A stretch of DNA of 64,000 bases from positions 40,221,440 to 40,285,439 of the forward strand of contig NC_134841.1 in the NCBI RefSeq assembly GCF_965363235.1, read 5' to 3'. Below the pieces are notes generated by a model. It was not told the DNA's origin. It worked only from the letters and a program-made list of their open reading frames with translations, and ran no database searches. The DNA is from Mytilus galloprovincialis (lineage: Eukaryota > Mollusca > Bivalvia > Mytilida > Mytilidae). Both the position numbers and the translations under genes were made by a program. Each line of letters opens with the position of its first letter. The stretch's first letter is position 1. This document shows positions 12,264-64,000 of this stretch, one piece after another.

Positions 12264-13650
12264 GTTTTGAATTTTCCTCTGAGTATTTTTGTGATTTTAC
12301 TTTTTATATAACGCCCTATCGTACTTATACATACAGCCATTGCATTATTGTGCTATGGTCATTTTTCATATTCCTGACTTTTTGTTTGCCTACTACTATG
12401 TTCACTTTTTTATCAAAGATTTTCTTTGTCGACATATTAATTCTTTGCATTGTTTTATAAGGATAAAGATTATAACACAATGCCACCTGTTGTACTCTAA
12501 GTTTTGACATTTAACAAAACTGTCTGTTTGTTTTGTTCACACATTGTTGTTAATAGAATATTATGCTACAGTCATACCAGTGAGATCTTTAGCTAGCTAT
12601 AAAACAAGGTTTTATCTACCCGTTTCTTTATAAGAATATGCCTGTACCAACTCAGGAATAAGAATCAAAATAAGAATATTTATTAAATCCAAGTAAAGGG
12701 CCCGTTTTCATGCATTTACACACACATATTATATATATATAGTATTAACTATACATTAATTTGTAAGATATATTATAATAAAAATAAATTATCAAATAAT
12801 TATCCTCCACACAAAATGGTGTTTGAAAATAAATAAATAAAATAGAATATTAATCCTTTATAGTTCATACAAAAAAGCCCTAAAAAATAAGATAAACTAA
12901 ACTATATCACTACTTCGTGTATATTGAGTTTGCGGAATGCAAATTTTCTGTTATTGCAAAACAAATATTAGTACTTATAAATCTTGACACTGACATATTA
13001 AAATTTTTGGATCCACATGACGTCAGCCAAATAAATTGTACATACTTTGAAATACAAGGGAAGTTTTTACATTAAATGCTTGTTTAAGATAGAAATAAGA
13101 TTCCGTTCCTTTTCATATGCAGAGAAATAAAAAATACAAAAGGAATATTCAAACTAACAAGTCGAAAACCAACCGACAATGTCATTTCTAAAAACAAAAC
13201 GACAAAAATACAAACATTAGATAAAGCACAACATTAAAATCTGAAATCAAAGTATTTTAGAAGATTATTCATAATAATCAATCCAAAGACAACCACTACG
13301 TACCCTTTTCATATTTTTCAGAATTATATAAGAGAATAAAGAAGGCGGGAACTAATGGAATATATTAACTGATCATCGACTCTAAACTCGCTAATTTATA
13401 TATAGTTCTTACAGTGGGTAATTGCTAACCAAAATTTAAAGTTACTAGACCACAACTATGGAGCTGATGTAATATGCAAATAGTTTTAAACGAACAAATA
13501 TTTAAAATGTCAAAAACTGTGTACGGAATATATACTTTATAATTCATCGATGAGTTATAATTAATAGCATGTAATTCAGTCTACAAAACAAATTAACTAC
13601 TTCTTAACTAATCTCTTCTGTGCGTTTAAAAGAAGTATGTTGTTCAGTAT

Positions 13651-16230
13651 ATGAAGAAACGAGAGAAAAAAGTAAACAGACACACACGTAACTTCGTAAG
13701 AATGCCTTATTTTGAATACGTGGCAATTTCGTTCATGCTTATTCGCTTTGTGACATCCTTACATTGTGACATTGCGTTTATGGAATCAAAAGAAGGAAAG
13801 TTGAAGATAGCCAATTGTCAAAATATTGGACTAACGCAAGTTCCGTCTTTTCTTCCAAATGATATCAATATACTGGATCTTAGTGAGAACAATATTAAAA
13901 ATCTCAGCAATTATGATTTTGAACGGTACGGAATATTGGAAAAATTGATCGTAAAGAAAAACAAACTTCATCATATAGAAGATAAGAGTTTCGTTGGATT
14001 AAATCGATTGAAGATTTTGGATATGTCAGAAAACAAATTGAATTTGTTGCATAGCTATACGTCGGATTTGTTTTTACCATTGGTAAATTTAAGAAACCTA
14101 GATATACGACGTAACATGGAGCAACAGTCTGAAACTAATTTGTACCACTACCCTGATAACGCTTTTGCTGTTTTAGAACAGTTGGATTTCTTTGCATTGG
14201 ACATGGCTCCAAATCCGAGTTTTGGAAAAGGATTTAGGAGATTGAAAAAGTTGAAATCGTTGACTTTCGAACTTTGTTATTTGCAATATCTTAACAACAG
14301 TGTGTTTGAAAACTTTTCTTCGAACATAAATGAGTTAAATTTAAAGGTGTGTCGTTTACATTTAGTTCATGTAGAAAATGATATTCTTCTTCCCTTTCCA
14401 AAAATGACCAAGTTAAACCTAGACGGAACTTGTATGCATCTAAAGCAGGCACTCAATATCTTATCTCCTTATCGTGGTAAAAGGTTTAAACTAATAAATT
14501 TCGGAGGATTGAGCTGTCCTGCATTCAATAATGAAAATTATACTTTTGTAGTGACAATCACAAAAGTAATGATGCAATATCTAAGAACTATTTGTGTCGA
14601 ATGGTTAGACTTATCCGACAACGGGATAGTTGATTTTGAGGAAGATTCGTTACTGTCGTATGATAGACCAGAATGTTTAGAAAATATTTTCTTTAAAGGG
14701 AACCGTTTCGCCTTTTCGAAGGGCAGGCAAATGGATGAATTAAAAAGTTTTTTACAAAACTGTAAAAACTTAAAAACCTTAGATTATTCATATATTCCAG
14801 TTAAATATGAACTGAGCAATAACGACCTAGATAGAAACATTGTTCATGAGAAACAGCAATTTGAAAGTAAATCTTCTGAAGTCATTATTTTGCCTCGCTC
14901 CTTGGAAACTTTACTTCTAAGTAATGTGTTATGTTATGATTTTCAAAGAATTTTTTTAATTCCAGAAGGAAGCAATTTGACAAACTTAGATGTTTCTTTT
15001 GGTTTTTCTCTTACAAGTATTCTTTTTCAAAAGAACTCCTCTCAGAAAATCGAAACATTGGTAATTGATGGTCATCCGTATTCTTCTTTTATAGTTCAAG
15101 AAGAACTGATGAATAACGGAAAAATCAAAACTTTAAAATGGAGAGATGCTAGTTTGTATATTCACATGAACCCTGAAAATAAGCATTATTCTTCGAGAAT
15201 ACAGGAACTATTTAAGAAGTTAAAATACTTAGAACACTTAGATATGTCAAAAAATTCCCTGTGGTTTTTACCTGCAAATGTATTTGAAAGCATGACATAT
15301 CTTTCAGAAATACGTTTGTCCAAAAACTTATTCCATTTGGTTCCCCGGCAAATCATGGATCTTACAAACATTAAATTATTAGATTTTCGACAAAATCTTT
15401 TAACAACATTGGATAAAAACACACGAGTTTGGGCAGATTCAATGAATCAACAACACGGCTTGAGTATTCTAATGGAAGATAATGCATTTGAATGTAATTG
15501 TGACAATTTGGACTTTATTGATTGGATAAATAAAACCAAAGTCAAGCTTGACAGTCGCTCGTATAAATGTACGCTTGTTAATGGTTCCTTAATCACTGTT
15601 CGGGAATCCTACGAGAAGATGCATGATTTGTTTTCCCATTGTGAAAGTTCAACATGGCTTACCGTTGCCTCAACTTTGTTGTCCACGTGCTTCGTAACAG
15701 GTTTTTTATTTTTGATATATAGTAAAAGATGGGAAATTTCTTTATTCTTTTACCAAAAATTCCGAATCATTGTCAAAAAGAAATACTGCAAAAGCTTCAA
15801 ATATGACGTTTTCGTTTCGTATGGGGACGATAGTAGACCCTGGATTAAAAACTATCTAATTCCAAAATTAGAACACGAGTGGAAACTCAAAATGTGTTTC
15901 AAAGATCGTGACTTCTTACCCGGGTGTTCCTATTTTGATACAGAAGCAGAAAGTATAGAAAACAGTAGACATGTTATATTTTTGCTTACTCCGTCTTTTA
16001 AATCGTCAGAAGATTACCTTTTTGCAGTTGAAAGAGTAAAACACGAGAAAAGGATACGTAATATAGAAAACATTATAGTTTTAGCAAAGGATATTTCATT
16101 GAAAGACATTCCAACAGAACTAACTTATATTTGGAACTATGTATCATTCATCCAGTGGCCAGATGACACCGATGATTTCGATATCATGTGGCAACAATTA
16201 AGACTATGGGTTTGTAGTGATTTGATGTAA
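13651..16230 (+). CDS. Toll-like receptor, TLR-A1 (intact, single exon)
   Basis: A predicted 859-aa type I membrane receptor. A second in-frame Met at residue 18 (13702) gives a cleaner signal peptide (MPYFEYVAISFMLIRFVTSL), so translation may start there. Leucine-rich repeats run from about residue 60 to 600 (LDLSENNI, LDMSENKLNLL, LDMSKNSL). One C-terminal cysteine cluster follows (C615, C617, C640, C664), the single-cluster arrangement of vertebrate-like TLRs. The transmembrane helix is about 668-690. The TIR domain runs from about 715 to 859, with box 1 YDVFVSY (718-724), box 2 RDFLPG (753-758, BB-loop proline kept) and box 3-like FIQWP (833-837). By family it would recognise microbial ligands and signal through MyD88-type adaptors; the ligand cannot be inferred. 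It differs from TLR-A2 at L647I, R729G and S760F (A1 residue first). Confidence 0.95.
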   Translation: MKKREKKVNRHTRNFVRMPYFEYVAISFMLIRFVTSLHCDIAFMESKEGKLKIANCQNIGLTQVPSFLPNDINILDLSENNIKNLSNYDFERYGILEKLIVKKNKLHHIEDKSFVGLNRLKILDMSENKLNLLHSYTSDLFLPLVNLRNLDIRRNMEQQSETNLYHYPDNAFAVLEQLDFFALDMAPNPSFGKGFRRLKKLKSLTFELCYLQYLNNSVFENFSSNINELNLKVCRLHLVHVENDILLPFPKMTKLNLDGTCMHLKQALNILSPYRGKRFKLINFGGLSCPAFNNENYTFVVTITKVMMQYLRTICVEWLDLSDNGIVDFEEDSLLSYDRPECLENIFFKGNRFAFSKGRQMDELKSFLQNCKNLKTLDYSYIPVKYELSNNDLDRNIVHEKQQFESKSSEVIILPRSLETLLLSNVLCYDFQRIFLIPEGSNLTNLDVSFGFSLTSILFQKNSSQKIETLVIDGHPYSSFIVQEELMNNGKIKTLKWRDASLYIHMNPENKHYSSRIQELFKKLKYLEHLDMSKNSLWFLPANVFESMTYLSEIRLSKNLFHLVPRQIMDLTNIKLLDFRQNLLTTLDKNTRVWADSMNQQHGLSILMEDNAFECNCDNLDFIDWINKTKVKLDSRSYKCTLVNGSLITVRESYEKMHDLFSHCESSTWLTVASTLLSTCFVTGFLFLIYSKRWEISLFFYQKFRIIVKKKYCKSFKYDVFVSYGDDSRPWIKNYLIPKLEHEWKLKMCFKDRDFLPGCSYFDTEAESIENSRHVIFLLTPSFKSSEDYLFAVERVKHEKRIRNIENIIVLAKDISLKDIPTELTYIWNYVSFIQWPDDTDDFDIMWQQLRLWVCSDLM

Positions 16231-16502
16231 AATACACTTCCAAATTCTCCTATGTATTTAAAAATCATAGGGTTATTTAAAAGGAAAATATTGTAAAATC
16301 AAATAGTTAGCAAAATAGTGTAAAACAAATAGCTAGCAAAATATTGTAATAAATAATAATGGCTTCAAAAACTTCTTGATCAAACTTATGGTTAAACATA
16401 TAGAATTATATGATAAATGCATCTTGCATTGTTCGTGATTGTTCAGTTGAATTGTCCATTATATATTGGAATTCAGAACTCATATTCTTGTTTGATAATA
16501 TA

Positions 16503-16900
16503 CACTACAAACTCCTCAGAGTCTGAATTGACCAGTTTTTGTGCTCGACCAGTAAAATCGAGCACACATTTTACTCGACTAGTCTCGACATTGTCTCGAC
16601 TGTACTTAACTGTACTTTAGTGTACTCGACTAGGTCTCGACTAGGTCTCGATTTTACTTAATTAGTCTGATTCAGTACTTGATGATCTTTGTGTAGTCTG
16701 AAATGGTCTTGACCAAGGCTCGACCTGTCTCGACCTGTCTTGACTAGTCTCGACTCAGTCTCAACCAGTCTCGACCTGTCTCGACTAGTCTTGACCTTCA
16801 AATTTAGTTTTGACTGGTGTAAATCAGCCCATCTAACTAAATTAAATATTGATCTTAAAAAATTCAAGCTTATTAGGTAGTTTGATTTATTGTTGTGAAA
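16503..16900. repeat. CACTA terminal inverted repeat, left, with TCTCGAC subterminal motifs
   Basis: It matches the reverse complement of 19845-20242 with few differences. Between about 16545 and 16800 there are more than a dozen copies of CTCGAC variants (such as TCTCGACTAGTCTCGACC), the usual subterminal pattern of CACTA elements. Confidence 0.88.
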
Positions 16901-16925
16901 TGAAAGAATTTAATTTTACAATATG

Positions 16926-17900
16926 TAAAAAAAAAATTATTATATAAAAATTCAGATAGGCATCTTTAATTTTTTTTATAACTTTTTCAAATCAACTTGG
17001 ATTTTCATCAAACTATGCAGCTATCTTACATATATATCAAGCTTACTGAATCCCATTTCATTTAGTTTTTTGTTGTATTGCTGTAAAATTTAAGAATTAA
17101 AGTAATTTTGGTAAAAAAAAGCTAGGATTTGCAATTCGGACAAAATAGAGATAGTACACTTTAATTTTTTAAATAACTTTTTCAAATCAACTTGGATATT
17201 CATCAAACTATGCAGCTATCTTACATATATATCAAGCTTACTGAATCCCATTTCATTTAGTTTTTTGTTGTATTGCTGTAAAATTTAAGAATTAAAGTAA
17301 TCTTGGTATAAAAAGCTAGGATTTGCAATTTCGGACAAAATAGAGATAGTACACTTTAATTTTTTTTATAACTTTTTTAAATCAACTTGGATTTTCATCA
17401 AACTATGCAGCTATCTTAAATGTATACTAAGCTTACTAAATCCCGGGTCATTTTGTTTTTTGTTGTATTGCTGTCAAATTTAAGAATTAAATTAATCTAG
17501 GTCAAAAAAGCTAGAATTTGCAGTTCGAACAAAATAGAGATAGTACACTTTAATTTTTTTTATAACATTTTAAATTCAACTTGGATTTTATTGAAACTAT
17601 ATAGCTACCTTGGTGATGTATTCTTCTTACTGAATCCCAGGTTGTTATAAAGTTTGTTGTATTGCTGTCAAATTTAAGAATTAATTTAATCTAGGTAAAA
17701 AAAAGCTAGGATTTGCAGTTTTGACAAAATAGAGATGGTACACTTTAATTTTTTTCATAACTTTTTCAAATCAACTTAGATTTTCATCAAACTCTACAAA
17801 TATCTTTGCAATATATTGATCTTACTGAAACATAGGTTGTTATTTTGTTTGGTGTATTTCTGTCAAATTTAAGAATTTAATTAACCTAGGTCAAAAAGCT
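16926..17900. repeat. ~194-bp tandem units, left arm of the CACTA element
   Basis: The marker GCTAGGATTTGC or its variants recurs at 17121, 17315, 17510, 17705 and (degenerate) 17898, so the period is 193-195 bp. The units become more diverged toward the centre of the element. Confidence 0.85.
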
Positions 17901-18359
17901 ACGATATTAGAAATATATCTTTTCTCATAATTTGGGAAAAAGTATACATAAAAAATTAATATAATTCCTTTAATGTTTTATTCCTTTTGATATACACTAT
18001 ATAAATATATCAAAAAGGGATGAAACATTAGAAATTATTAAAATAGTTCTTCTGATTTGTGGTGATTTATAAAGCAATACCTTCTGCTTGGGGCAAACTT
18101 ATTAAAAAGATCACATCTACCAGAGAGTTTTAAATTCTAAATAACATTTATTCAAAGTTGCAACATCCTGTTAAATCTAAATCGCAGGGCTTTTAATTCA
18201 CTAGATAAGTAATACACGAGTTTAAGAAAAGTAGGGCTTTCTTTTTACCTGTAAAACTCATGTGTACTGATGTAATTAAATCATGTATAGTGTCATGTCA
18301 TTAAATTTGACAAAAATATATTTTAAAACTTCATAACAACCTGGGATTTAGTAAGATCA

Positions 18360-19795
18360 CCAAGGTAACTATATAGTTTTGATAAAATCCAAGTTGATTT
18401 GAAAAAGTTATTAAAAAGCTTAAAGTGTACTATCTCTATTTTGTTCGAACTGCAAATTCTAGCTTTTTTGACCTAGATTAATTTAATTCTTAAATTTTAC
18501 AACAATACAACAAAAAACTAAATGAAATGGGATTCAGTAAGCTTGATATATATGTAAGATAGCTGCATAGTTTGATGCTAATCCAAATTGATTTGAAAAA
18601 GTTATAAAAAAAATTAAAGTGTGCTATCTCTATTTTGTCCGAATTGCAAATCCTAGCTTTTTTTACCAAAATTACTTTAATTCTTAAATTTTACAGCAAT
18701 ACAACAAAAAACTAAATGAAATGGGATTCAGTAAGCTTAATATATATGTAAGATAGCTGCATAGTTTGATGAACATCCAAGTTGATTTGCAAAAGTTATT
18801 AAAAAAATTAAAGTGTACTATCTCTATTTTGTCCGAATTGCAAATCCTAGCTTTTTTGACCTAGATTAATTTAATTCTTAAATTTTACAACAATACAACA
18901 AAAAACTAAATGAAATGGGATTCAGTAAGCTTGATATATATGTAAGATAGCTGCATAGTTTGATGCTAATCCAAATTGATTTGAAAAAGTTATAAAAAAA
19001 ATTAAAGTGTGCTATCTCTATTTTGTCCGAATTGCAAATCCTAGCTTTTTTTACCAAAATTACTTTAATTCTTAAATTTTACAGCAATACAACAAAAAAC
19101 TAAATGAAATGGGATTCAGTAAGCTTAATATATATGTAAGATAGCTGCATAGTTTGATGAACATCCAAGTTGATTTGCAAAAGTTATTAAAAAAATTAAA
19201 GTGTACTATCTCTATTTTGTCCGAATTGCAAATCCTAGCTTTTTATACCAAGATTACTTTAATTCTTAAATTTTACAGCAATACAACAAAAAACTAATGA
19301 AATGGGATTCAGTAAGCTTGATATATATGTAAGATAGCTGCATAGTTTGATGCAAATCCAAGTTGATTTGAAAAAGTTATTAAAAAAATTAAAGTGTACT
19401 ATCTCTAATTTGTCCGAATTGCAAATCCTAGCTTTTTATACCAAGATTACTTTAATTCTTAAATTTTACAGCAATACAACAAAAAACTAAATGAAATGGG
19501 ATTCAGTAAGCTTGATATATATGTAAGATAGCTGCATAGTTTGATGCAAATCCAAGTTGATTTGAAAAAGTTATTAAAAAAATTAAAGTGTACTATCTCT
19601 ATTTTGTCTGAATTGCAAATCCTAGCTTTTTATACCAAGATTACTTTAATTTTTTAATTTTACAGCAATACAACAAAAAACTAAATGAAATGGGATTCAG
19701 TAAGCTTGATATATATGTAAGATAGCTGCATAGTTTGATGAAAATCCAAGTTGATTTGAAAAAGTTATAAAAAAAATTAAAGATGCCTATCTGAA
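18360..19795. repeat. ~194-bp tandem units, right arm, with a 388-bp dimer duplication
   Basis: About seven inverted copies of the left-arm unit. Within them a dimer made of two distinguishable units is repeated: 18471-18858 and 18859-19246 are nearly identical at a 388-bp period. This is a small higher-order repeat, so the right arm grew recently by unequal exchange. Confidence 0.85.
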
Positions 19796-19844
19796 TTTTT
19801 ATATAATAATTTTTTTTTTACATATTGTAAAATTAAATTCTTTC

Positions 19845-20242
19845 ATTTCACAGCAATAAATCAAACTACCTAATAAGCTTAAATTTTTTAAGATCAATAT
19901 TTAATTTAGTTAGATGGGCTGATTTACACCAGTCAAAACTAAATTTGAAGGTCAAGACTAGTCGAGACAGGTCGAGACTGGTTGAGACTGAGTCGAGACT
20001 AGTCGAGACAGGTCGAGACTAGTCAAGACAGGTCGAGCCTTGGTCAAGACCATTTCAGACTATACAAAGATCATCAAGTACTGAATCAGACTAATTAAGT
20101 AAAGTCGAGACCTAGTCGAGTACACTTAAGTACAGTTAAGTACAGTCGAGACAATGTCGAGACTAGTCGAGTAAAATGTGTGCTCGATTTTACTGGTCGA
20201 GCACAAAAACTGGTCAATTCAGACTCTGAGGAGTTTGTAGTG
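19845..20242. repeat. CACTA terminal inverted repeat, right
   Basis: Reverse complement of 16503-16900, ending GAGGAGTTTGTAGTG. It carries the same GTCGAGAC-rich subterminal zone. Confidence 0.88.
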
Positions 20243-20993
20243 ATATATTTTTGATGCGTGACATGCATATAATTTCATATTCATTACTTGATATTATTTA
20301 AAATATGCATTGAAGTTTAGCGGCCAATCTTGGAGTTTCCAAAAGCCTTAATTTGACAAATACGTGGGTTTTATTTATACCGCAGTATCTTGTATCAGTG
20401 TATTTTTTTTAATTCTTCATTGAATCATTCGCAATAAGTGACCCGCCATGACATTTGCAGGCTTATGGAGGTAGAACGTCATTGTTAGAAAAATTATAAA
20501 CATGATAAATATCGAGATTCAATGAAATACGTATTTGTGAAGAGGAGATAAACACTTGCCTTTGCTTCTCTTTTGCGGACGCCGAACTTTACATCATATA
20601 TAAGTTTTGAAGAAGTTTTACTTTATCGTTTGAAGTGAAAAATATTTGAATCTACATTTTAAATTGATACAAAAAAAAAAAAATCAAATTTCTGCCAAAT
20701 AGATTTCCTTTCATAAATGAAGTCTGAAATATATCCATAATAAATGCACCGTATCAAATGCATATAAGAGAACACCTACTTATAAACTGTTACGCGTCGC
20801 ATACTATGTATAGAGACATGCATAATAAATTTAAATTAAAAAAAGGAATTCTTAAAGCTTCCTTTGACATTTTAAACTTATTTTATTTCAACAAGTTTAA
20901 ATTACATGTTCTAAAATAGAGATAACAATTGTTTGCATTGTAGTAAATCTAAGTCTTTGAAAATTTATTCAAATACGCTATTAAACATCACTA

Positions 20994-23667: not shown

Positions 23668-24918
23668 CTTGGTGTTCTGAAAGACTGGCAAGCACTTTGG
23701 ACTTTCAGACCGTGTCTGTTGATTGTCTTAATAGCAGTTTGAGGCAATTTTATGCAGAGGCTCAACCTCAAAACATATCCAAAAGGGCTCTGAAAATGCC
23801 AGAAGAGCATGCACAGGAATACCACAAAAATTCTTTAAAAAATGTACGTGCTGCTTTGAACAGACATCTGAAAGACATAGGCCGTGGCATTGACATTGTC
23901 CGTGATTCAGAATTATGCAGCAAATTCCATGTTGAGTGCTAAGCTGAAACTTAACTTGCGCAATGGATTGTCAAGACCAACACAGCATCACCCTATAATA
24001 ACAACTCCTGAATTGCTTAAAATAAATACATACCTTATGAAAAAAGAGGACCCTGTAGCACTCCGTTTCAGAGTATGGTACCTTTTAGGCATACATTTCG
24101 TCAGCCGTGGGGTAGAATTTCATCATCAATTGAGCATTAATTCCTTCAAATTTGAAAGCGATGAAATGGGATCCGAATTTCTGTCAATATCGCATGAAAC
24201 ACACCAAAAAAATCACCAAGGTGGACTAGACGACGCAACAGAAGAAACACAAGATAAGAGAATGTATGCCGTACCCAATTTTCCGTCCTGTCCTCTTTCT
24301 ACAATAAAGCACTTTCTATCCAGATGTGATCCAGCCGCGAAATCACTGTTCAACCAATGCTGCAAAGAAGCTTTACGCTGTCCATCTATGTACAACACAT
24401 GGTATAATGTAACACCTGTGAAAGTTAAAAACTTCTCAGCTTTCATGCCCGACATATGTAAAAATGCTGGTGTTAAACGTTATACAGGGCATTCACTCAG
24501 ATCTACAGCTATTACCGCCATGAGTGATGCTGGTTTAACAGACAGGAGCATCATGTTTATGTCAGACCATAAATGTGAGGAAAGTCTAAAATCATATTGC
24601 AGGAGACCGAGCACGGTTCAAAAGCATACCATCAGTTCGGTGTTAGACAAGGTAGCAACGGGTAATTCTTCAACATCAGTAGCACTTGTACCAGTTGCTC
24701 CTTCTACTTCCAGTTCTACCGCCATTTCTCCAATTCAAAATAATGTTATAGACACAGAAACTGGACAATCTGTTCCCACCGAAAGAACCCCACTCCGCTC
24801 TCTTGATATACCAAATCAAAACGTTCTAGTTAACAGTCAGTCAACTCTTCAAAACCACAAAATGTCTGGATTTGCAGCAAATTCAGTATTTCATAACTGC
24901 AGTTTCAATTTCAGTTAA
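23668..24918 (+). pseudogene. Crypton tyrosine recombinase (frame-broken)
   Basis: The core-binding half (about 23668-23935, SLRQFYAEAQPQNISKRALK and KNVRAALNRHLKDIGRGIDI) and the catalytic half (about 23940-24918) are in different frames; a further shift lies near 23690. The catalytic residues are recognisable: Arg in HFVSRGVEF, His-x-x-Arg in GHSLRSTAITAM, His in MSDHKCEESL and the Tyr nucleophile in SLKSYCRRPS. The C-terminus is Ser/Thr-rich and ends FHNCSFNFS. The family is the Crypton recombinase that gave rise to host genes of the KCTD1, QRICH1 and ZMYM2 type. A domesticated host gene is less likely because an empty site exists in the paralogue. Confidence 0.8.
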
Positions 24919-25636
24919 CATGTGACACTTTTGAACTGTGTAGTTGTGTATTGCGTGTACACATTGATGGCGTGGATTACAAATCCGGATTATTTGACTT
25001 TTGACTGTTAAAATTCAGTTATTCACATTGAACGTTTTTGATGTTCTGTTATTGTTTCTTTTATATGTTTAAAGACATAATTATTTAGCAAAATGTGTTG
25101 TTAATTCTTACTTTGTTAGTCTTTTACGAGACGGAGTGATGACCTACATTTACTTCCCTGTGTATCGATTTCACTCTGATATATTCAAAAACAACTTAAT
25201 ATCTTTGAATTAAGAATTATAAGGATTAAACACATTTCGAAGGACTTTTATGTTAAGTTTGTGAGTTAATCACCCGAGTTTACACATCAATAACCTCTAG
25301 GAAAAATGTGTTTAATCCTATAATAAAGAAGGCGGGAACTAATGGAATATATTAACTGATCATCGACTCTAAACTCGCTAATTTATTTATAGTTCTTACA
25401 GTGGGTAATTGCTAACCAAAATTTAAAGTTACTAGATACAACTATGGAGCTGATGTAATATGCAAATAGTTTTAAACGAAAAAATATTTAAAATGTCTAA
25501 AACTGTGTACGGAATATATACTTTATAATTCATCGATGAGTTATAATTAATAGCATGTAATTCAGTCTACAAAAAAAATTAACTACTTCTTAACTAATCT
25601 CTTCTGTGCGTTTAAAAGAAGTATGTTGTTCAGTAT

Positions 25637-28216
25637 ATGAAGAAACGAGAGAAAAAAGTAAACAGACACACACGTAACTTCGTAAGAATGCCTTATTTTG
25701 AATACGTGGCAATTTCGTTCATGCTTATTCGCTTTGTGACATCCTTACATTGTGACATTGCGTTTATGGAATCAAAAGAAGGAAAGTTGAAGATAGCCAA
25801 TTGTCAAAATATTGGACTAACGCAAGTTCCGTCTTTTCTTCCAAATGATATCAATATACTGGATCTTAGTGAGAACAATATTAAAAATCTCAGCAATTAT
25901 GATTTTGAACGGTACGGAATATTGGAAAAATTGATCGTAAAGAAAAACAAACTTCATCATATAGAAGATAAGAGTTTCGTTGGATTAAATCGATTGAAGA
26001 TTTTGGATATGTCAGAAAACAAATTGAATTTGTTGCATAGCTATACGTCGGATTTGTTTTTACCATTGGTAAATTTAAGAAACCTAGATATACGACGTAA
26101 CATGGAGCAACAGTCTGAAACTAATTTGTACCACTACCCTGATAACGCTTTTGCTGTTTTAGAACAGTTGGATTTCTTTGCATTGGACATGGCTCCAAAT
26201 CCGAGTTTTGGAAAAGGATTTAGGAGATTGAAAAAGTTGAAATCGTTGACTTTCGAACTTTGTTATTTGCAATATCTTAACAACAGTGTGTTTGAAAACT
26301 TTTCTTCGAACATAAATGAGTTAAATTTAAAGGTGTGTCGTTTACATTTAGTTCATGTAGAAAATGATATTCTTCTTCCCTTTCCAAAAATGACCAAGTT
26401 AAACCTAGACGGAACTTGTATGCATCTAAAGCAGGCACTCAATATCTTATCTCCTTATCGTGGTAAAAGGTTTAAACTAATAAATTTCGGAGGATTGAGC
26501 TGTCCTGCATTCAATAATGAAAATTATACTTTTGTAGTGACAATCACAAAAGTAATGATGCAATATCTAAGAACTATTTGTGTCGAATGGTTAGACTTAT
26601 CCGACAACGGGATAGTTGATTTTGAGGAAGATTCGTTACTGTCGTATGATAGACCAGAATGTTTAGAAAATATTTTCTTTAAAGGGAACCGTTTCGCCTT
26701 TTCGAAGGGCAGGCAAATGGATGAATTAAAAAGTTTTTTACAAAACTGTAAAAACTTAAAAACCTTAGATTATTCATATATTCCAGTTAAATATGAACTG
26801 AGCAATAACGACCTAGATAGAAACATTGTTCATGAGAAACAGCAATTTGAAAGTAAATCTTCTGAAGTCATTATTTTGCCTCGCTCCTTGGAAACTTTAC
26901 TTCTAAGTAATGTGTTATGTTATGATTTTCAAAGAATTTTTTTAATTCCAGAAGGAAGCAATTTGACAAACTTAGATGTTTCTTTTGGTTTTTCTCTTAC
27001 AAGTATTCTTTTTCAAAAGAACTCCTCTCAGAAAATCGAAACATTGGTAATTGATGGTCATCCGTATTCTTCTTTTATAGTTCAAGAAGAACTGATGAAT
27101 AACGGAAAAATCAAAACTTTAAAATGGAGAGATGCTAGTTTGTATATTCACATGAACCCTGAAAATAAGCATTATTCTTCGAGAATACAGGAACTATTTA
27201 AGAAGTTAAAATACTTAGAACACTTAGATATGTCAAAAAATTCCCTGTGGTTTTTACCTGCAAATGTATTTGAAAGCATGACATATCTTTCAGAAATACG
27301 TTTGTCCAAAAACTTATTCCATTTGGTTCCCCGGCAAATCATGGATCTTACAAACATTAAATTATTAGATTTTCGACAAAATCTTTTAACAACATTGGAT
27401 AAAAACACACGAGTTTGGGCAGATTCAATGAATCAACAACACGGCTTGAGTATTCTAATGGAAGATAATGCATTTGAATGTAATTGTGACAATTTGGACT
27501 TTATTGATTGGATAAATAAAACCAAAGTCAAGCTTGACAGTCGCTCGTATAAATGTACGCTTGTTAATGGTTCCATAATCACTGTTCGGGAATCCTACGA
27601 GAAGATGCATGATTTGTTTTCCCATTGTGAAAGTTCAACATGGCTTACCGTTGCCTCAACTTTGTTGTCCACGTGCTTCGTAACAGGTTTTTTATTTTTG
27701 ATATATAGTAAAAGATGGGAAATTTCTTTATTCTTTTACCAAAAATTCCGAATCATTGTCAAAAAGAAATACTGCAAAAGCTTCAAATATGACGTTTTCG
27801 TTTCGTATGGGGACGATAGTGGACCCTGGATTAAAAACTATCTAATTCCAAAATTAGAACACGAGTGGAAACTCAAAATGTGTTTCAAAGATCGTGACTT
27901 CTTACCCGGGTGTTTCTATTTTGATACAGAAGCAGAAAGTATAGAAAACAGTAGACATGTTATATTTTTGCTTACTCCGTCTTTTAAATCGTCAGAAGAT
28001 TACCTTTTTGCAGTTGAAAGAGTAAAACACGAGAAAAGGATACGTAATATAGAAAACATTATAGTTTTAGCAAAGGATATTTCATTGAAAGACATTCCAA
28101 CAGAACTAACTTATATTTGGAACTATGTATCATTCATCCAGTGGCCAGATGACACCGATGATTTCGACATCATGTGGCAACAATTAAGACTATGGGTTTG
28201 TAGTGATTTGATGTAA
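25637..28216 (+). CDS. Toll-like receptor, TLR-A2 (intact, single exon)
   Basis: An 859-aa near-twin of TLR-A1 with the same architecture: signal peptide (alternative start at Met18, 25688), LRR ectodomain, single C-terminal cysteine cluster, one transmembrane helix and TIR domain. It differs from A1 at residues 647 (Ile), 729 (Gly) and 760 (Phe). The last two are inside the TIR domain, close to box 1 and just after the RDFLPG BB-loop. A fourth, silent change lies near the stop. The first ~1.9 kb of coding sequence show no difference by eye, although the non-coding flanks differ by about 1%, which suggests gene conversion. The Crypton now sits about 315 bp upstream of the start, so the distal upstream region shared with A1 has been pushed 3 kb away; A2 may be regulated differently. 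Confidence 0.95.
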   Translation: MKKREKKVNRHTRNFVRMPYFEYVAISFMLIRFVTSLHCDIAFMESKEGKLKIANCQNIGLTQVPSFLPNDINILDLSENNIKNLSNYDFERYGILEKLIVKKNKLHHIEDKSFVGLNRLKILDMSENKLNLLHSYTSDLFLPLVNLRNLDIRRNMEQQSETNLYHYPDNAFAVLEQLDFFALDMAPNPSFGKGFRRLKKLKSLTFELCYLQYLNNSVFENFSSNINELNLKVCRLHLVHVENDILLPFPKMTKLNLDGTCMHLKQALNILSPYRGKRFKLINFGGLSCPAFNNENYTFVVTITKVMMQYLRTICVEWLDLSDNGIVDFEEDSLLSYDRPECLENIFFKGNRFAFSKGRQMDELKSFLQNCKNLKTLDYSYIPVKYELSNNDLDRNIVHEKQQFESKSSEVIILPRSLETLLLSNVLCYDFQRIFLIPEGSNLTNLDVSFGFSLTSILFQKNSSQKIETLVIDGHPYSSFIVQEELMNNGKIKTLKWRDASLYIHMNPENKHYSSRIQELFKKLKYLEHLDMSKNSLWFLPANVFESMTYLSEIRLSKNLFHLVPRQIMDLTNIKLLDFRQNLLTTLDKNTRVWADSMNQQHGLSILMEDNAFECNCDNLDFIDWINKTKVKLDSRSYKCTLVNGSIITVRESYEKMHDLFSHCESSTWLTVASTLLSTCFVTGFLFLIYSKRWEISLFFYQKFRIIVKKKYCKSFKYDVFVSYGDDSGPWIKNYLIPKLEHEWKLKMCFKDRDFLPGCFYFDTEAESIENSRHVIFLLTPSFKSSEDYLFAVERVKHEKRIRNIENIIVLAKDISLKDIPTELTYIWNYVSFIQWPDDTDDFDIMWQQLRLWVCSDLM

Positions 28217-29544
28217 AATACACTTCCAAATTCTCCTATGTATTTAAAAATCATAGGGTTATTTAAAAGGAAAATATTGTAAAATCAAATAGTTAGCAAA
28301 ATAGTGTAAAAAATAGTTAGCAAAATATTGTAATAAATAATAATGGCTTCAAAAACTTCTTGATCAAACTTATGGTTAAACATATAGAATTATATGATAA
28401 ATGCATCTTGCATTGTTCGTGATTGTTCAGTTGAATTGACCATTATATATTGGAATTCAGAACTCATATTCTTGTTTGATAATATATATTTTTGATGCGT
28501 GACATGCATATAATTTCATATTCATTACTTGATATTATTTAAAATATGCATTGAAGTTTAGCGGCCAATCTTGGAGTTTCCAAAAGCCTTAATTTGACAA
28601 ATACGTGGGTTTTATTTATACCGCAGTATCTTGTATCAGTGTATTTTTTTTAATTCTTCATTGAATCATTCGCAATATGTGACCCGCCATGACATTTGCA
28701 GGCTTATGGAGGTAAAACGTCATTGTTAGAAAAATTATAAACATGATAAATATCGAGATTCAATGAAATACGTATTTGTGAAGAGGAGATAAACACTTGC
28801 CTTTGCTTCTCTTTTGCGGACGCCGAACTTTACATCATATATAAGTTTTGAAGAAGTTTTACTTTATCGTTTGAAGTGAAAAATATTTGAATCTACATTT
28901 TAAATTGATACAAAAAAAAAAATCAAATTTCTGCTCTATAGATTTCCTTTCATAAATGAAGTCTGAAAGTCTGAAATATATCCATAATAAATGCACCGTA
29001 TCAAATGCATATAAGAGAACACCTACTTATAAACTGTTACGCGTCGCATACTATGTATAGAGACATGCATAATAAATTTAAATTAAAAAAAGGAATTCTT
29101 AAAGCTTCCTTTGACATTTTAAACTAATTTTATTTCAACAAGTTTAAATTACATGTTCTAAAATAGAGATAAGAATTGTTTGCATTGTAGTAAATCTAAG
29201 TCTTTGAAAATTTATTCAAATACGCTATTAAACATCACTAAGAGCCAATAAATACAATAATTTTGTGTTTTATAAATTAGTGCCTTCGATAAGTAAAAAC
29301 TAATATTATTATGAATGCACCTATATAGAGTAACCCTTTTCTTGGATATAAATGTTGATTTTCCTTATTCCATCGATCATTTTTCAGTTGACATATGGGA
29401 TGATACTTCAACATAAATAATTGATGATTTTAAAATCAGGGTCAGCAGTAGTTCGAATAGAGCAGTAGAAAATCCTGTCGCTGCAGATTTTCAGCAAGAT
29501 TACAGACATATCGTAATGGTGACCGTCAAAGTTTATGGTGTCGA

Positions 29545-58559: not shown

Positions 58560-59200
58560 ACTGTCTTATTATGACTTTTCTCATTATATGATGTTCATTT
58601 GCCTGTATATGATGTTATTTTACCCTTATATGATGTGCAAATGACATTATATGATGTGCACTTGTCCTTATATGATGTACACTTGTCATTATGTGATGTG
58701 AACTTGTCCTTATATGATGTACACTTGTCATTATATAATGTGAAGTTGTCCTTATATGCTGTCCAAACACATTTATATGAGGTACAAACATCTTTATATC
58801 ATGTCCACAATTCATTATATAATGTGCTTTCTCCATTATGTCATGTGATTGCGTCCTTATATTATGTGATGCTTTCCTTATACGATGTAGAAACGGCATT
58901 ATGTGATGTGCAATCACCTTTATATGATGACAATTTGACATTATCTGATGTGCAAATTATATTATTTGATGTGCAAATTATCTTATATGATGTGCAAATG
59001 GTCTTATATCATGTACAGATGTCTTTATATTATGTGTAAACTTCTTTATATGATGTGAACGTATCCTTATGTTATGTGCTAACATCGTTATATGATGTGG
59101 TAATGTCATTATATTATGACAATGTAACATCATAGGGTGTGGTTCGGTTTACATCTTTATAGGGTGTCAGAACAGCATTATGATGATGTCGAAACATCAT
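58560..59200 (+). repeat. 21-bp minisatellite
   Basis: More than 20 variants of a 21-bp unit such as TTATATGATGTGCACTTGTC. Because the period is divisible by three, long ORFs exist on both strands (LYDVHLS repeats on plus, HHIRTS on minus); these are by-products. The inverted counterpart starts at 63770. Confidence 0.85.
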
Positions 59201-63769: not shown

Positions 63770-64000
63770 GACATCATATAATGAAGTAAACCAAACCACA
63801 TAATATAAGATTACAAGCACATAATATAATGACACAACCACATCATATAAAGATATTTGCACATAATATAATGATATGTACACATCATATAAGTATATTT
63901 GCACATGACATAAGTATATTTGCACATCATATAAGGATCGTTGTGCATAATATAAGTACGTTTGCACATCATATAAGAATGTTTGTACATCATATAAGAA
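63770..64000 (-). repeat. 21-bp minisatellite, inverted partner (runs off the window)
   Basis: Units such as GCACATCATATAAGGAT are the complement of the array at 58560-59200. The array continues past the window end. Confidence 0.8.

Follow-up and report, generated by a model that had tools for sequence, protein, structure and literature searches.

The window, that is, the whole 64-kb stretch of Mytilus galloprovincialis DNA analysed, is located within contig C4 and contains a complete non-autonomous CACTA/EnSpm element of 3,740 bp at positions 16503–20242, recognised by its inverted termini, an ATA duplication, an empty site and dispersed relatives. The element ends CACTACAA...TTGTAGTG. The CACTA ends of the original prediction were confirmed: the inverted termini start CACTACAAACTCCTCAGAGTCTG... 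and are exact, the left end being CACTACAAACTCC..., with the right end reading as its perfect reverse complement throughout the 40 bp examined. The target-site duplication ATA is present at 16500–16502 (left) and 20243–20245 (right). The flank was recently duplicated locally, 13335–16502 being 99.6% identical to 25322–28486, and the second copy is devoid of the element. Positions 28457–28513 of this second copy, with a single ATA at 28484–28486, correspond to the element flanks minus one ATA in 57 of 57 bases. The exact 3-bp duplication previously read from this paralogous empty site is thus upheld, because the sequence left when the element is taken out together with one ATA is that of the empty site.

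Each copy of the flank duplication carries an 866-aa Toll-like receptor frame with LRR and TIR domains (13630–16230 and 25616–28216), and more diverged relatives of this receptor-frame duplication are found at approximately 31.3–33.9 kb and 49.4–51.6 kb of the window. The window also includes a 345-aa frame at 23881–24915 with matches to DUF3504 and phage-integrase (tyrosine recombinase) profiles, which we take to represent perhaps a Crypton-like or related mobile element, and two minisatellites (58582–59118 and 63794–64000) with periods of 21, 42 and 63 bp, mutually related in inverted orientation.

The left terminus and subterminal zone (16503–16802, plus strand) contains 11 TCTCGAC-like motifs and the right one (19943–20242, minus strand) contains 12, in the outer 300 bp of each side, with none in the 2,800-bp interior, in accordance with the TCTCGAC-rich subterminal zone that had been described. 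Tandem Repeats Finder (TRF) detected arrays of periods 10, 20 and 31 in the subterminal zones, which hold short direct and inverted repeats. An edge sequence or leader (16917–16977, plus strand) is followed by the left array, or arm A (16978–17905, plus strand), with four full units of 194/195 bp and a partial unit of 149 bp. The right array, or arm B (18301–19768, minus strand), consists of seven full units and a partial unit at its inner edge. Tandem-repeat periods were 195 bp (4.8 repeats) in the left array and 194 bp (7.3 repeats) in the right array, in opposite orientations. The predicted arrays of ~194-bp units opposed about a centre are therefore real; the original prediction is extended by a centre of 397 bp (17906–18302) without any match to the unit profile. 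Nested inverted repeats pair ~75% of the element, consistent with its earlier description as palindromic over most of 3.7 kb. The unit profile had no match elsewhere in the 64-kb window, and the element is non-coding and has no tnp2-type gene.

CACTA/EnSpm elements are characterised by CACTA(C) inverted termini, a 3-bp target-site duplication, short direct and inverted subterminal repeats and, in autonomous members, a tnp2-type (Transposase_21) transposase. The genome searched for relatives comprised 1.38 Gb in 331 contigs. A 47-bp terminus pattern, with up to three mismatches allowed, gave 202 forward and 227 reverse matches (429 in total; none with the reversed control), roughly 215 copies' worth when giant elements, described below, are included. 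Among the approximately 100 of these 429 places that were listed, a hand count gave at least 32 facing terminus pairs separated by 1.0–5.9 kb. The full sequence was examined for 21 copies, the window element and 20 others, selected for the presence of both termini. Other copies were likewise expected to show 3-bp duplications, and an exact one was found in 30 of 31 copies (20 of the 21 full copies, L080, and nine of nine further copies), with 17 different triplets; the exception was L054, and L081 was left out of the count, as an exact-match search did not locate its right end. For a 3-bp match within the window the chance expectation is ~0.023, giving P ~4e-48 for 30 of 31. Ends other than the CACTA motif were not encountered; this constancy is partly a product of selection, since the copies were chosen by matching termini, a criterion that has no bearing on the duplication test. 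The element is thus a non-autonomous member of the CACTA/EnSpm group with CACTA ends and 3-bp duplications, belonging to a family that was apparently mobile in the recent past.

Full units in both orientations were present in 16 of the 21 copies, the other five (L046, L048, L054, L059 and L062) being one-armed. Length differences among copies come largely from the number of units, which varies between arms and between copies. The centre was retained in 13 of 21 copies at 97–99.5% identity; in four of these 13 it is reversed relative to the window, for which insertion in either direction is a sufficient explanation. The one-armed copies, together with L101, show six different breakpoints, as would be expected from interrupted repair after excision. 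Intact 3-bp duplications flank five of these six, which suggests that two arrays are dispensable for movement, unless the deletions postdate insertion.

Several data bear on the origin of the mirrored arms. Both arms open with the same edge sequence, and among the unit classes of arm B the first one lies closest to the outermost unit of arm A (0.034, versus 0.040–0.076), a mirror signal at the outer edge that is modest, several other unit classes giving 0.037–0.042. At the inner side, the last full unit of arm A before the centre differs by ~20% from the remaining unit classes, and in the three copies tested this diverged type gives the best fit to the inner edge of arm B: 96 of 120 positions in the window copy, versus 89 of 121 and 87 of 120 for other units, and 94 of 117 and 98 of 120 in the other two copies, with alternatives giving 84–89 matches of 117–121. 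The two arms of a copy differ by 1.02%, versus 1.55% for random pairs, and none of 2,000 permutations was as low (18 of 21 copies; L047, L048 and L054 were dropped). Among 12 copies with the centre, arms of the same side differ between copies by 1.20% and arms of opposite sides by 1.19%. Mean divergence between single units was 7.3% within an arm, 7.9% between the arms of a copy and 7.4% between copies. Homogenisation of units within copies is unsupported, given that units from one element do not form clusters of their own. L056, which lacks the centre, has a clean palindrome axis (45 bp, with a 2-nt spacer); in L043 and L050, likewise devoid of the centre, such an axis was not found. The arms most likely derive from an entire array that was duplicated in inverted orientation along with its edge units, followed by gain and loss of units and one-sided deletions.

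A search with Transposase_21 (PF02992) detected 49 loci in this genome, against none across 14 control genomes; four of these loci sit between facing copies of the terminus of the short element. They belong to three giant elements, roughly tenfold the length of the short one: one of 32.9 kb (C5:18358751–18391633, L039–L042; duplication TAT; one Transposase_21 locus), one of 37.5 kb (C6:33128978–33166435; duplication TTA; one locus) and one of 51.9 kb (C6:25779727–25831577; duplication TAC; two identical loci). Relatives that share the ends and have an EnSpm-type (tnp2, PF02992) transposase, for which a search had been suggested, are thus present in this genome, and CACTA elements of 33–52 kb are noteworthy in their own right. 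The two loci of the 51.9-kb element may reflect an internal duplication or an assembly error; the position where a second left end might lie holds interior sequence of the giant elements. A 655-aa ORF of the 32.9-kb element matched PF02992 with an E value of 3.7e-21; of the 88 open frames with a length of 55 aa or more in this element, the Pfam comparison covered four. TCTCGAC-like motifs number 19 and 20 in its outer 420 bp and five in its 32 kb interior. The transposase regions of the giants (3,570 bp) are 99.4–100% identical, which points to a probable recent spread.

The first 60 bp at both ends are common to the three giants and the short element. Beyond them, the ends of short and giant elements are 77–84% identical over ~290–330 bp, with nothing further in common; the left terminal zone of the window element shows 79% identity to its left counterpart in the 32.9-kb element, and the right one 80–84% to the ends of that element. 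The 194-bp unit and the centre had no match in the 32.9-kb element, the sole giant read. This element contains a 190-bp tandem array (L040:5930–6668), without a match to the profile of the 194-bp unit. After all 58 first-look candidates had been scored, the transposase loci of the giants' subfamily were L023–L027 only, 97–100% alike; the ends of the fifth related locus (L024, ~97%) were sought in two stretches and not found. With the shared first 60 bp, the subterminal motif, their own 3-bp duplications and the Transposase_21 loci, the giants are likely the autonomous partners of the short element.

To describe the presence of the 194-bp unit elsewhere, a 44-bp unit motif was searched in the whole genome, giving 1,165 forward and 1,160 reverse matches (2,325 in total; control 0). 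Among the 100 matches listed (exact matches on contigs C1–C4), CACTA copies account for 78 and a second mobile family, marked by GGGACCGG ends, for 18, with four unassigned. The longest unit cluster among these 100 was ~2.7 kb, and no long free satellite arrays were seen among them. The proposal that such elements could seed satellite arrays finds no support in this sample, 96 of the 100 listed matches (exact, C1–C4) being inside the two mobile families. Of nine unit places examined outside the terminus pairs, one (L066) is a diverged CACTA copy, with 86% identity at its end, and the other eight (L063–L065 and L067–L071) are copies of the second family.

The second family has inverted ends GGGACCGGTC... 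and a 194-bp array in a single orientation, and its left end has 66 matches in the genome (control 0). A 57-bp portion of the edge sequence of the CACTA arms is present in most copies, at up to 98% identity. The array stops mid-unit in this family, where the CACTA array runs on into the diverged unit and a partial unit, so that it resembles a sub-segment of the CACTA array. Duplications of 3 bp were read by eye in the six copies with both ends in view (TTA in three, TTG, TAG and TCA). PIF/Harbinger elements encode a Harbinger transposase and generate 3-bp duplications, usually of the form TWA; judged from its duplications, the second family might be placed there as a guess. A 7.1-kb candidate within C1:4040001–4047200 was considered as a possible autonomous copy and rejected, as it consists of two short opposed copies without transposase. 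The array of L063 shows a ~692-bp repeat, adjoined by a 147-bp tandem array.

The whole of these data, which come from sequence comparison, is best accounted for by a foldback-shaped, non-autonomous animal CACTA/EnSpm element that is probably moved by the giants, with inverted duplication of an array, turnover of its units and a sub-array in a second family; we assign this account a probability of about 0.8. The transposase of the giants would probably move the short element in trans, as the termini, the motif, the duplications and the transposase domain suggest. It would recognise the CACTA ends and probably bind the TCTCGAC-rich subterminal repeats, after which the element would be cut out and inserted elsewhere with a 3-bp duplication. 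A single array of 194-bp units would have been duplicated in inverted orientation around the 397-bp spacer, the edge units on both its outer and its inner side being copied along, and the arms would then have been altered by gain and loss of units. One-sided deletions, as from interrupted repair after excision, would have given the shorter copies, and part of the array would have come to lie also inside the second, unrelated mobile family. A more far-reaching version is put forward only tentatively: a CACTA-class animal foldback family, powered by autonomous elements of 33–52 kb, might carry a 194-bp satellite in inverted form and have passed it to a second DNA-transposon family, as a mobile repeat cassette without free satellite, its palindrome being formed or re-formed by fold-back repair (compare L056).

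Alternative explanations were weighed against this account. The interior is an inverted tandem array and could in principle be an inverted segmental duplication of a satellite instead of a mobile element, a reading with practically no probability left in view of the exact ends, the empty site and the 3-bp duplications at dispersed places in 30 of 31 copies; a free satellite is ruled out by the same duplications and empty site. Each terminus might have gained its own array, the mirror being due to convergence or later exchange. Unequal unit numbers in the two arms of most copies agree with this, as do the lack of grouping of units by copy and the roughly uniform similarity among those unit classes that were compared at a distance from the edges, but both arms share the edge sequence at their start and the unusual unit type toward the centre, and we consider separate acquisition unlikely. 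That the unit entered the CACTA element from the family with GGGACCGG ends is conceivable, the edge sequence and units being common to both families and the unit classes close. However, the array of the second family stops mid-unit where that of the CACTA element continues inward, it seems to be a sub-segment of the CACTA array, and other CACTA copies have a weak unit match outside the edge sequence (22–27 bits), which leaves an origin in the second family doubtful.

With regard to movement, the limited sharing of ~290–330 bp per end means that a closer autonomous partner may exist, and the giants could be only cousins of another autonomous CACTA relative in which the 194-bp unit and the centre are present as well. 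The end identity of 77–84% over ~300 bp, the lack of unit and centre in the giant read, and the fact that the terminus places listed are ~100 of 429 speak for such a relative. Its probability is nevertheless rather low, since the outermost 60 bp are identical in the giants, the subterminal motif is common to both, and the Transposase_21 loci of the giants' subfamily are restricted to L023–L027 among the 58 candidates, all scored. The 194-bp arrays could also have been selected for transposase binding, as has been proposed for the repeats of Galileo, or their hairpin used in transposition. In some Galileo subfamilies, the long terminal inverted repeats (TIRs) contain tandem repeats with secondary transposase-binding sites (PMC3573991). 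For the Mytilus arrays this is improbable: the candidate recognition motif is absent from them (0 in 2,800 bp), on which evidence their role as extra TCTCGAC-motif binding sites was rejected for the present, and the 3-bp duplications are undamaged in five of the six one-armed copies, though the deletions could postdate insertion.

The element fits the foldback-type structural class, as the greater part of it consists of long inverted termini that contain tandem repeats. Membership in the Drosophila FB, Galileo (P superfamily) or Tetris lineages was rejected, the element being set apart from these by its CACTA-type termini and candidate partner transposase alone. The original prediction had called such a palindromic element unusual; this holds plausibly for a long mirrored interior in a CACTA element, but foldback elements from other superfamilies already show the architecture as such. 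Foldback elements with tandem-repeat arms are suspected of giving rise to satellites and inversions. With ends, duplications and candidate transposase-bearing partners in one genome, this family is a concrete test system for the formation of mirrored arrays, for their effect on transposition, favourable or unfavourable, and for the passage of a repeat between transposon families.

Tetris is a foldback element of Drosophila virilis with TIR-220 repeats, whose transposase was not found and whose superfamily is left unsettled in that study (PMC4079207). It is likewise non-autonomous, and its long inverted termini are built of ~220-bp AT-rich tandem repeats, whose number changes from one arm and one copy to another, without clustering of units by array (PMC4079207). 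In contrast, its repeats also form long satellite arrays of up to 66 copies (PMC4079207), none being seen here among the sampled matches, whereas the Mytilus element has CACTA ends, 3-bp duplications and a tnp2-type candidate partner. Galileo of Drosophila has long TIRs extended by ~210-bp tandem repeats, in unequal number between TIRs, and shows strong structural turnover; it differs in belonging to the P superfamily and in having tandem repeats in some subfamilies only (PMC3573991). Jozin CACTA elements of Chenopodium are also linked to satellite DNA (PMC7320549, PMC8978399), with a satellite array inside a CACTA element in C. quinoa and repeated subterminal units of 10–20 bp; these are plant elements in which the captured array is near the 3' end, whereas here it is mirrored in both arms (PMC8978399). 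In oysters and other molluscs, satellite arrays of about six monomers with abrupt junctions are spread by mobile elements (PMC8268682, PMC5139131), but these are Helitrons with central arrays in a single orientation, and PMC8268682 contains no mention of CACTA or EnSpm. Directed searches of an open-access collection of papers gave no CACTA foldback element; subscription papers and Repbase reports were mostly outside this search, and an entry may exist. From these comparisons, the Mytilus family would be a CACTA element built like a foldback element, with an architecture already known from Tetris and Galileo, and its pairing with CACTA features appears to be new.
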